From: an uncultured bacterium | GTDB taxonomy: Bacteria > Bacillota_I > Bacilli_A > RFN20 > CAG-826 | Length of the DNA: 64,000 bases | Reading direction: 5' to 3' | Assembly: GCA_949295325.1 (NCBI GenBank) | Contig: CASFKG010000002.1 | Coordinates: 264,047-328,046, forward strand | Program-made: the position numbers and the translations under genes | In this document: positions 3,541 through 6,823 of the stretch, one piece after another | Numbering within the stretch: position 1 is the first letter of the stretch | Layout of the letters: each line of letters starts with the position of its first letter | The notes under the pieces: generated by a model | The model's input: the letters and a program-made list of their open reading frames with translations, nothing else | What the model was told of the DNA's origin: nothing | Database searches by the model: none

Positions 3541-3546
3541 ATTATA
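3541..3546 (-). promoter_or_regulatory. -10 element (TATAAT) of ybeY, leaderless arrangement
   Basis: TATAAT on the minus strand is followed by six bases and then the ybeY ATG. The transcription start would fall at the A of the start codon. No good -35 is visible. Confidence 0.6.
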
Positions 3547-3559
3547 GCAAGGATGCGGG

Positions 3560-4804
3560 CTATTTCACCTCCCCGCCTTTTTGGCGGTACCTCCTTAGGA
3601 AGGCAGCGGTCCTCGCCTCGTGGATGGGTCCGTCGGCAATGTCGCCGAAGGCGCTTCCCAAGGTCAGGCGGATGGCATGGAAGCCCAGTACCGCGAAAAG
3701 GAAGTAGTTCAGGCTCGGCGTGGCGCTGAGGGCGGTCGCCAGGAGGGCGAGGGCGCATTCGAGGAAGGTGGACAGGGTCCGTTTGAGCGAAATCAGGCGC
3801 CCTAACGCCGCGCTTTCGTCCCGCACTTCCGAGAGTAACCCCCGCCGCTTTTCCCCGTCATTCTCCCCGAAGGCCCGGGCTTCCAAGGCTTCGAGGGCCC
3901 CGGCCCTCCTATTGACGTAGGGCCTTAGGAAAAGCGTGTCCGCGGCCAATAGAAGCATCTGGAGCAATAAAGGAACGATGTAAGAACGTTCGTTGAGGAG
4001 CAATAAAGCGAACAGGAACCCGCCCGCCAGCACGTTCCCGCAAAGACGCAGGGGACGGGAATAGAAAGCGGCCTTGTAGGCGCAATAGGAGCGGAAGTTG
4101 GCGGCGAGGTCTCCCCCGTTTCCGTCGATTCCCCCCAAATACTCCTCGTCGAACCGCCTCAGTTTCCTATCGAGATAGGCTTCCAAAAGGATCTGCAGCA
4201 GGGCAAAGCCCGAAAGGGCCAGCACCGGGTAGAGGAAATTCCCGCCGGTTCCGACGAAATGCAAAGCCAAAAGGAAAAGGCCCTGCAAAAGCAGGGAAAT
4301 CAAGGCGGCAGGGAGCCGCCCGTCGTTTCTTTGCTTTTCCGGCAATACCCCCGAATACGGATGGGGGTCCGTCCCTTCGACGGCGAGGAACTGTCCGGTC
4401 CAGAGGTCGCAAAGCCGCCCGTAACGCAGGTATCTCCGGCCGGAATCGGGATCCCGGAGCGAGGCCATTCCGAGGAAACTCCTGTCGTAGACGACCGCGT
4501 GGGTACCGGACTTGCCGTTGAGAATGAGGATGAGCGGCCCCTTTTCCTCCCTCAGTTCCTCCTTTCTGGGCGCGGCATAGGCCTTCAGGACAAGCCCTTC
4601 CGCCTCCCCGGCCCGGATGATCTCTTCGAGACTCAGCCCGCCCTCCCTTCCCGGGGAATAGTAGACGTAGTTTTTGTCCTTCGCGAAGTCGGCGAGCAGC
4701 ATTCGCAGGCAGGTAAGCCCGCAGGCGTTCTCGCTAGCGCCTAGGAAAACGTGTTTCTTCACTAACAAGGATAGGGCCGAAAACGTCAATCGGTCCCGCC
4801 GCAT
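3560..4804 (-). CDS. C39 peptidase-like membrane protein without an ATPase domain
   Basis: The N-terminal part (about residues 15-135) resembles the C39 peptidase of bacteriocin-maturing ABC transporters: Cys28 in ACGLTCLRML, His102 in GTHAVVYD and Asp in SLRDPDSG give a Cys-His-Asp set. The glutamine six residues before the cysteine, which forms the oxyanion hole in active enzymes, is replaced by Gly22. The remaining 270 residues hold five or six hydrophobic segments like an ABC-exporter membrane domain. No Walker A, signature or Walker B motif follows; the protein ends at 414 residues. The start is unsure: the ATG directly follows the rpmA terminator and lacks a ribosome site, and a GTG at about residue 15 is an alternative. 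Substrate unknown. Confidence 0.7.
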   Translation of the reverse strand: MRRDRLTFSALSLLVKKHVFLGASENACGLTCLRMLLADFAKDKNYVYYSPGREGGLSLEEIIRAGEAEGLVLKAYAAPRKEELREEKGPLILILNGKSGTHAVVYDRSFLGMASLRDPDSGRRYLRYGRLCDLWTGQFLAVEGTDPHPYSGVLPEKQRNDGRLPAALISLLLQGLFLLALHFVGTGGNFLYPVLALSGFALLQILLEAYLDRKLRRFDEEYLGGIDGNGGDLAANFRSYCAYKAAFYSRPLRLCGNVLAGGFLFALLLLNERSYIVPLLLQMLLLAADTLFLRPYVNRRAGALEALEARAFGENDGEKRRGLLSEVRDESAALGRLISLKRTLSTFLECALALLATALSATPSLNYFLFAVLGFHAIRLTLGSAFGDIADGPIHEARTAAFLRRYRQKGGEVK

Positions 4805-4807
4805 ACG

Positions 4808-4832
4808 AAAAAAGGGGCACGCGAAGTGCCCC
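4808..4832 (-). terminator. Intrinsic terminator after rpmA
   Basis: A perfect hairpin GGGGCACTTCGCGTGCCCC on the minus strand is followed by six T, 18 bases after the rpmA stop. It separates rplU-prp-rpmA from the C39-like gene. Confidence 0.88.
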
Positions 4833-4849: not shown

Positions 4850-5140
4850 TTACTTTCCTTCGGCGTAGACCGAGACCTTGGTGCCGCGGCGGCCGAAGCG
4901 CTCGTAGCGGACGATGCCGCTCACGGTGGCGAAAATGGTATCGTCCCCGCCCATCATGGCTCCGGTCCCGGGATGGACCTTGGTGCCGCGCTGGCGGTAG
5001 AGGATGCTTCCGGCCGAGGCGAACTGCCCGTCTCCCTTCTTGGCGCCCAAGCGGCGTCCGGCGGAGTCGCGGCCGTTTTTGGTCGAGCTCACGCCCTTCT
5101 TGGAAGCGAAGAGCTGCAGGTCAATGCGTTTTAGGAACAT
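4850..5140 (-). CDS. rpmA: Ribosomal protein bL27 with cleavable N-terminus
   Basis: bL27 reaches into the peptidyl-transferase centre of the 50S subunit. The 96 residues include the Firmicute extension [11 protein letters not shown] before ASKKG. In Staphylococcus aureus this extension is removed by the protease Prp, and prp lies directly upstream here, so cleavage between Phe11 and Ala12 is expected. A ribosome site of the AAGGAAG type precedes the ATG. Third gene of rplU-prp-rpmA. Confidence 0.96.
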
Positions 5141-5918: not shown

Positions 5919-6578
5919 TTAAAACGGAATCCCCTCCCCGCTAAACGAGAAATACCGCCGTCCCGCGACGACCAGGTGGTCGAGAAGCACGGTGCCTACC
6001 GCCTTCAGCCGCGCCCCGAGTTCCCTGGTGGAAGCGATGTCCTCGGGACTCGGCAGCGCGATCCCGCTCGGGTGCACGTGGACAGCCACCGCGTACTTGG
6101 CTCCCCTTTTCGCCGCTTCGCGGGCCGCGAGGTCGAGCCTGAAGGAAAGCCTTTCGCCCCGGGAGAGCATCCGGTCGGCGGCCAGCTCCCTCCGGCCGTT
6201 GAGCAGGACGAGGCGGAATTCCTCGTTTTCCCTATCCCCGTAGCGGGCCGCCAGTTCCTTGGGTCCGACGGCCTTGCCCGGCCCTGACATTTCGCTCCTT
6301 CTGGCGATTTCGTAGGCCGCGGCGATCCGCAGGGCCTTCGCCCCCTTGATTCCGCGTTCGGAGAAAAGCCCCTCCCCGGCTGCTTCCCGGAGACCGCGGA
6401 ACCCGCCGTTTTCGTATAGCAGCCGCTCGCTTAGCTCCAGGGCGTCTTCGCCCCGGCTGCCGGTCGAAAGCAAAAGCGCGAGAACCTCGGGATCGCCCAG
6501 CGATTCCATCCCTTCCCGCAGGGCCTTTTCCCTGGGCCTCAGCGCTTCGGGCAGGCCTAAAAGGCGCCCTACTGCCAC
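5919..6578 (-). CDS. radC: RadC/JAB family DNA repair-associated protein
   Basis: RadC proteins combine a helix-hairpin-helix-like N-terminal part with a JAMM metalloprotease fold; their exact role is unsettled. The JAMM set is present as HVHPSG...PSPEDI (about residue 166). The conserved N-terminus (LPEALRPREKALREGMESLGD) requires a start upstream of the ATG at 6509; the GTG at 6576-6578 gives 219 residues and overlaps the end of the upstream membrane-peptide gene, which suggests translational coupling. A longer reading to 6812 lies mostly in another frame of that peptide gene. Confidence 0.88.
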   Translation of the reverse strand: MAVGRLLGLPEALRPREKALREGMESLGDPEVLALLLSTGSRGEDALELSERLLYENGGFRGLREAAGEGLFSERGIKGAKALRIAAAYEIARRSEMSGPGKAVGPKELAARYGDRENEEFRLVLLNGRRELAADRMLSRGERLSFRLDLAAREAAKRGAKYAVAVHVHPSGIALPSPEDIASTRELGARLKAVGTVLLDHLVVAGRRYFSFSGEGIPF

Positions 6579-6751
6579 TCGAAGGTGAAGCCGCCCGGAA
6601 GCTTGACGCTCCCCTCGTTCGTCTTGAAAAGGTTGTAGGCGACCACCACCACGATCCCGATGGCAAGTATCGCCATTATGGCCCCGAGGCTCAACGCCTC
6701 GCCGGGCCTCACGCCTTCGAGGCTTGCCTGTCTTAACGGTATTCTCTGCAT
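6569..6751 (-). CDS. Small single-span membrane peptide ending in GG-FTFEWQ
   Basis: This 60-residue peptide has a short polar N-terminus (MQRIPLRQASLEGVRPGEAL), one hydrophobic segment at about residues 21-41 and a C-terminal tail KLPGGFTFEWQ. GAGGAGGG lies seven bases before the ATG at 6749-6751, the strongest ribosome site in this part of the window, so it is a real gene. It overlaps the radC start by 10 bases. I do not recognise the family. The double glycine before an aromatic hexapeptide resembles a processing site, but that is inference. Confidence 0.72.
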   Translation of the reverse strand: MQRIPLRQASLEGVRPGEALSLGAIMAILAIGIVVVVAYNLFKTNEGSVKLPGGFTFEWQ

Positions 6752-6823
6752 GTGTTCCCTCCTCAGCCAAAAGTAGGAAGGATTTTCCCCGGGCGTCCCC
6801 AAAAGCGCCCAACCTTTACATTC

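Follow-up and report, generated by a model that had tools for sequence, protein, structure and literature searches.

The window analysed here, a 64,000-nt stretch of DNA from an uncultured bacterium, carries on its minus strand an ORF (3560–4804, 414 aa in the long reading) that the initial annotation described as half of a C39-type exporter, ending without its ATPase and placed among translation genes. Peptidase-containing ABC exporters (PCATs) such as PCAT1 and ComA consist of a C39 peptidase domain, a transmembrane domain (TMD) and a nucleotide-binding domain (NBD), and the locus raises the question of what such a protein is, and what it is kept for, when the last of these parts is missing. 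The likely answer, for which we argue here, is a PCAT without its ATPase, kept as a membrane-anchored C39 peptidase that trims a leader from a conserved membrane peptide of 60 residues.

The C39 gene and its surroundings

The genes around the ORF run in the order rpmA (4850–5140), C39 gene, ybeY, cdd, era and recO (Table 1), and the window's is the single C39 protein detected in the 1.10-Mb genome. The GTG at 4760–4762 is probably the true start of the gene, since in the close relative L033 an in-frame stop comes two codons ahead of the corresponding GTG and since the structural model shows residues 1–13 of the long reading as disordered (pLDDT below 50). A terminator-like hairpin cuts the gene off from rpmA, so it is probably the first in the next transcript. 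A promoter-like GTGAAA-16-TATAAT is also present at 3541–3568 (minus strand), where the C39 gene reaches its 3′ end and shortly ahead of the ybeY start, and ybeY may have a promoter of its own in addition. PADLOC gave no match, and no link to defence was found.

Table 1. Features of the C39 gene, its neighbours and the candidate peptide in the window
Feature	Position	Strand	Basis or remark
C39 peptidase / ABC-exporter membrane-domain protein without ATPase	3560..4762	(-)	~400 aa; readable from 4804
C39 peptidase domain, residues 16–146 (414-aa reading)	4367..4759	(-)	PF03412, structural match
Catalytic Cys28	4721..4723	(-)	invariant 45/45
Catalytic His102	4499..4501	(-)	invariant 45/45
Catalytic Asp118	4451..4453	(-)	invariant 45/45
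Gly22 at the oxyanion-hole Gln position (-6 from Cys)	4739..4741	(-)	alignment
Six-helix ABC-exporter membrane domain, residues 160–410, short ICL1/ICL2	3575..4327	(-)	model, alignment to PCAT1
ybeY, conserved neighbour downstream of the C39 gene	3067..3534	(-)	Pfam YbeY and synteny
Terminator-like hairpin, rpmA / C39 gene interval	4814..4832	(-)	
Small membrane peptide, 60 aa, candidate substrate	6569..6751	(-)	leader, one membrane helix, PGG-F-F-W tail
Double-glycine-type leader MQRIPLRQASLEGVRPG, predicted cleavage after Gly17	6701..6751	(-)	leader statistics, leaderless forms without C39
Predicted mature peptide EALSLGAIMAILAIGIVVVVAYNLFKTNEGSVKLPGGFTFEWQ	6572..6700	(-)	

Fold and loss of the nucleotide-binding domain

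Pfam matched the window protein to Peptidase_C39 (PF03412; residues 20–143, 2.5e-10, 40.7 bits against a cut-off of 22) and to nothing else of weight, ABC_tran (PF00005) being unmatched. An AlphaFold2 model (pLDDT 90.4, pTM 0.84) showed a C39 domain and six long helices, and VIA-align placed residues 15–410 of the model onto residues 8–467 of PCAT1 with a Z of 23.6 over 394 residues. When the C39 part was compared alone, Z was 17–18 against the peptidase domains of PCAT and ComA (18.1 to 6mpz and 17.6 to ComA 3k8u), so the C39 fold proposed from the sequence is present; the membrane part alone gave Z 14–17 against TAP, TmrAB and other exporters. Comparing the PDB sequences with the single window sequence returned nothing useful, and a profile search of the same sequences recovered PCAT1 and ComA. 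The protein stops after helix 6, where the ATPase would start, and the model, the PCAT1 alignment and Pfam thus bear out the earlier description of an exporter-like membrane domain followed by a stop without an NBD.

The same architecture is found among its relatives, as none of 45 aligned homologues matched ABC_tran or ABC_membrane, though all 45 matched Peptidase_C39; a relative from family f8 passes the PF00664 cut-off (families are given here by anonymous codes: f2, f4, f8, f11, f17, f20, f22, f25 and f29). The loops that couple the membrane domain to the NBD are shortened, with medians of 46 residues for ICL1 and 41 for ICL2 versus 59 for each in full-length homologues. No separate exporter-type ATPase was found among the best matches in the window genome, the top seven lying in frames of 575–728 aa, a size that suits fused exporters and leaves room for membrane domains of their own. 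With the ATPase absent, the coupling loops shortened and no orphan exporter-type ATPase among these best matches, ATP-driven transport by the window protein is unlikely. It has neither a C-terminal NBD with a Walker A motif nor full-length coupling loops, and therefore we class it not as a PCAT but only as a PCAT descendant.

Active site

Cys28, His102 and Asp118 stand in the order of C39 peptidases, as had been read from the single sequence, and are the sole invariant columns in the alignment of 45 homologues. The glutamine of the oxyanion hole is present in 42 of these; the window protein has Gly at this position, its two sister species G029 and G004 have Ser, and the three form a clade with 100/100 support. 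The Gly noted in the initial annotation is therefore correct for the window protein but does not describe the family, and the missing glutamine reads as a local loss within a three-species clade of a family that otherwise has a full C39 active site. An inactive domain across the whole family was considered and ruled out by the invariance of Cys, His and Asp. Judged by these residues and by the Gln in 42/45, the family looks like an active peptidase, a statement that covers the family and not the window protein. In the window's own species, the change of Gln to Gly together with a weaker leader on the candidate substrate (no Glu at -8) suggests that cleavage is reduced or altered. The bare C39 proteins of f4 also lack the glutamine and keep equivalents of Cys, His and Asp. 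That the triad is invariant across the family after loss of the ATPase argues that selection keeps proteolysis and not transport.

Distribution and the ybeY locus

When 97 related genomes were searched at the protein level, 55 proved to have homologues, their frames clustering at 380–430 aa and nearly all of them ATPase-free. Counting the 52 ATPase-free homologues with ybeY inside the fetched stretch, ybeY lies on the same strand in every case and 48 of the homologues are positioned at most 400 bp 5′ of it; the genes upstream of ATPase-free homologues vary (rpsU, dnaJ, valS or rpmA, as named from sequence). Such a distribution at a single syntenic locus is far beyond chance, and the ATPase-free proteins form one monophyletic group (100/99). 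The close relatives thus also lack the ATPase, which upholds the view of a stripped exporter as opposed to a simple truncation, while an ATPase is fused in more distant ybeY-adjacent relatives. The suggestion that the placement among translation genes carries meaning did not hold up, as it looks like inherited gene order and no tie to translation was found. We found no description of the ATPase-free form or of the peptide discussed below in the open-licence literature.

Other C39 proteins were seen in some of these genomes. An additional, separate full-length C39 exporter (~723–729 aa) is encoded elsewhere in six of them (G040:C20, G043:C36, G058:C12, G088:C65, G166:C15 and G186:C32), the second C39 frame of G088 being 443 aa. 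Five genomes of the window's genus (G006:C22:2605, G008:C75:20848, G019:C9:4291, G020:C200:7747 and G031:C1:11701) encode C39-like proteins of ~228–246 aa on contigs other than that of the ybeY-linked gene.

Possible stepwise loss of the motor

In other orders the ybeY-adjacent locus holds C39-TMD-NBD exporters, including degenerate forms. Full-length or degenerate exporters lie next to ybeY in 12/13 cases in f20, 11/11 in f22, 8/8 in f11 and 1/1 in f29, the last three being mollicute-type families (TGA=Trp); the P-loop regex used in this survey missed some P-loop variants that were visible on inspection of the sequences. Since these more distant relatives at the same locus carry the ATPase, the ancestor of the window protein was a normal peptidase-containing exporter.

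The degenerate forms are five f11 proteins from TGA=Trp genomes (L129, L159, L162, L163 and L165), all next to ybeY, whose ATPase has no Walker A motif; PF00005 was unmatched in the four that were scanned. They keep Cys, His and Asp in those read, their coupling loops are partly shortened (51 and 52 residues), and they group together (99/93), nested with full-length relatives. This group is separate from the ATPase-free group, so, by the phylogeny, at least two independent events have removed or disabled the ATPase at the ybeY locus. In f22, f11 and f29 a single-helix ORF of 118–167 aa usually sits between an intact exporter and ybeY. This ORF is absent from the five degenerate f11 loci and from the ATPase-free family, where the gap to ybeY is too short for it. 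Further reduced proteins are found in f2, where the C39 protein is ~170 aa, consists of the C39 domain and one C-terminal helix and lies directly before ybeY, and in f4, where it is 120–127 aa and the C39 domain stands alone.

A candidate substrate beside radC

The ORF at 6569–6751 encodes MQRIPLRQASLEGVRPGEALSLGAIMAILAIGIVVVVAYNLFKTNEGSVKLPGGFTFEWQ, a small membrane peptide that is, from its sequence and distribution, the likely and best substrate candidate of the C39 protein. Its gene lies just before radC and, in the loci read, usually just after valS. In a class sample the peptide was present in 56/56 genomes of the order, usually as a single copy, giving a concrete candidate substrate in essentially every genome of the order. 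Among 35 distinct peptides the leader has L at -12 in 29/35, S or T at -11 in 26/35, E at -8 in 30/35 and L or M at -7 in 23/35; G at -1 is found in 35/35, a count that is anchored on that Gly. Position -2 is Pro in 19/35 and Gly in 5/35 (f20, f2, f4 and G041), and Pro is usual in the window's genus and present in the window, whose leader keeps L-12, L-7, V-4 and G-1 and is missing E-8 and S/T-11. Textbook GG leaders occur elsewhere, as in MYELTELEMQQINGG (f20), MELLSVEECRHIYGG (f4) and MRKLSDNELNEVEGG (G041).

Independent double-glycine leader models match the peptide family, with TIGR01847 above its cut-off in G041 alone, and class IIb bacteriocin and ComC models gave weak matches across the leader; no Pfam or NCBIfam family spans the whole peptide. 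A scan of 61 related genomes with TIGR01847, a model of only 15 positions, returned nothing at E 0.1, and a strict GG regex over the 836 small ORFs of the window genome returned 0 versus 0.6 expected, both being too strict for a Pro-Gly leader. The peptide's near-universality and its fixed locus by radC, in several families with mreC/mreD- or minD-like genes (named from sequence), lead us to argue for an envelope housekeeping role rather than a bacteriocin. With regard to radC itself, its ORF (5919–6812, minus strand) reads as 297 aa from a TTG with the conserved part beginning at residue 87; radC translation probably starts near 6570 instead, immediately past the peptide gene.

Synteny between the C39 gene and the peptide gene had been suggested as a check; the two are close together only in the window's clade and lie apart elsewhere. 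By a Pfam search, all but two of the 64 good genomes of the order have C39 (62/64), and families that the full-length window query did not match still have C39 in the shorter forms of f2 and f4; an objection that the peptide occurs in families without a window homologue was dropped on this ground and on recognition of the leader. In f20, peptide and exporter occur in exactly the same 16 genomes (16/16). In f25, three of the four genomes whose peptide has a leader show a C39 match (131- and 141-aa frames, with weak matches in G362), and six others (G209, G280, G418, G429, G450 and G455) have no C39 and have peptide frames of 41–45 aa, which we call leaderless as that length is too short for a leader. 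The association of leader and C39 in f25 has a Fisher p of 0.03 across three genera, hence few independent events. Of 61 relatives, 51 have C39 together with the peptide and 4 have neither, and these double absences count for little since three of those genomes are <70% complete. Co-occurrence within the order is weak evidence, as both genes are near-universal and the counts are confounded by incomplete genomes. In G041 and G375 a leadered peptide is present and C39 was undetected.

Proposed role and alternative explanations

We propose that an ancestral PCAT lost its ATPase and that what remained was conserved in the order, where it heads the ybeY-cdd-era-recO run. The C39 domain would be cytoplasmic, as in PCAT1, and would bind the leader (LSxxELxxIx-P/G-G) and cut after the invariant Gly-1. 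The cut would free a short acidic N-terminus and the single-helix peptide would settle into the membrane, with the mature form probably N-out and C-in by the positive-inside rule, given the K/R residues after the helix. Transport would have belonged to the ancestral machine and would no longer be needed, proteolysis being retained. In certain families the membrane domain has gone as well, largely or entirely, and where C39 is absent the peptide is usually encoded leaderless.

Two alternatives concern the missing ATPase. The ATPase in distant relatives could point to a recent truncation or an assembly artefact here, but this is refuted by 55 independent genomes in which the proteins are almost all 380–430 aa and ATPase-free, by their monophyly (100/99) and by the loop shortening they have in common. 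A working half-exporter that uses an ATPase in trans would fit with the full six-helix exporter fold being kept and with the separate ATPases of some ABC systems, but we regard it as highly improbable: the two ATPase-docking loops are 13 and 18 residues shorter, the top exporter-type ATPase matches lie in fused-size frames, the small accessory ORF beside the Walker-A-bearing mollicute exporters is absent here, and in related families the membrane domain is mostly or wholly lost.

The remaining alternatives concern what the C39 domain does. It could be an ATP-independent membrane peptidase acting on an unrecognised peptide, with the valS–radC peptide matured otherwise, and this would agree with the two genes being usually unlinked, with the leadered peptides of the two genomes where C39 went undetected and with the mycoplasma C39 exporters that have no recognised substrate (PMC6609329). 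We nevertheless think it unlikely, as the peptide bears the type of leader recognised by C39 enzymes, its distribution equals that of the exporter exactly in f20, it is leaderless where C39 is missing, and no other GG-leader candidate was found in the window genome. For the window's clade only, there is also some possibility, a minority one in our estimate, that the domain no longer cuts and serves as a leader-binding or chaperone module, bringing the peptide to the membrane, and this would still allow the peptidase to be active in the rest of the family. The model for such a module is the HlyB-type C39-like domain, which binds its substrate rather than cutting it and has no catalytic Cys, and binding without cutting is a possible end state for the window's clade. 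The substitution of Gln22 by Gly in the window and by Ser in both sister species, the loss of Glu-8 from the window leader and the missing Gln in the bare f4 proteins all speak for it. However, unlike HlyB-type domains, the window protein retains an invariant Cys28, and His102 and Asp118 are also kept in the clade with equivalents in f4, which would be unexpected were catalysis dispensable.

Trimming of the peptide by a membrane-anchored peptidase remains our preferred reading, and it can be extended, more tentatively and with a chance that we place somewhat short of even, to a housekeeping two-part system across several Bacilli orders, made up of a conserved one-helix membrane micropeptide and the C39 protease that matures it, in which the exporter has been pared down by stages. 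These stages would run from the exporter to a protease with a membrane domain, a protease with one helix, a bare protease and lastly a leaderless peptide with no protease. If this is true, export was never the essential step, and the locus would be a rare case of a transporter that can be traced through successive stages of reduction to an enzyme.

Relation to known systems

The window protein resembles PCAT1 and ComA in its C39 fold, in the order of Cys, His and Asp and in its six-helix exporter domain, and differs from them in having no NBD, short coupling loops and, in its clade, no oxyanion Gln. FapD and other ATPase-free C39 peptidases resemble it in having C39 without a fused ATPase, and gave weak model matches; FapD, of the Pseudomonas amyloid system, differs in having no ABC-exporter membrane domain.

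The mollicute form has the NCBIfam name NF045998 (Mbov_0121 family peptidase domain-containing ABC transporter). It shares with the window protein the ybeY-adjacent locus and a homologous C39 and membrane domain, but the mollicute proteins are ~600–690 aa and have an ATPase, which is degenerate in a clade of f11. NF045998 gave no match to the window protein, and relatives scored 67.3 and 50.6 bits versus a cut-off of 500; the adjacent accession, NF045999, covers one of the small mollicute ORFs. Gene 0401 of JCVI-syn3A is reported as a homologue of C39 exporters that lacks any identifiable double-glycine substrate and was tentatively cast as a lipoylpeptide importer (PMC6609329, eLife). As GlyRS is gene 0405 in the same organism (PMC6609329) and the mollicute-type locus L129 has the order C39, ybeY, era, recO and glyS, gene 0401 very probably corresponds to the ybeY-adjacent C39 locus. 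If the two-part system exists, the mycoplasma C39 transporters that lack a recognised substrate, gene 0401 among them, may belong to it, and the missing partner of these exporters, one of which was kept in JCVI-syn3A, could be the radC-side peptide. In f22 mollicutes the peptide profile gave weak matches (E 5e-4 to 0.03) in 70–90-aa frames (G249:C1:18669, G376:C1:130053, G424:C12:19238, G336:C1:73166, G121:C1:581600 and G311:C1:173014). They may be homologues of the peptide and the substrates so far missing for the Mbov_0121 exporters, and they are given no weight in the argument here.

Class II bacteriocin and pheromone precursors share with the peptide a leader of the LSxxELxxIxGG type. The peptide differs from them in being near-universal, usually single and radC-syntenic, in its one helix and PGG-F-F-W tail, and in a -2 position that is mostly Pro in the window's genus. 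In f17 the peptide profile also hit, via their leaders, double-glycine precursors of the ordinary two-peptide kind, and these serve as a positive control for the leader type only. In that family (L118, L119, L120, L122, L123, L124, L125 and L182–L187) full-length C39 exporters have between one and four short double-glycine peptides next to them, which follow a conserved two-peptide plan like that of class IIb, one type ending like RPLKC and the other like RR..KYC. At L119, L120 and L123 the peptides or exporters are near ComG-like ATPase or pilin-like genes.
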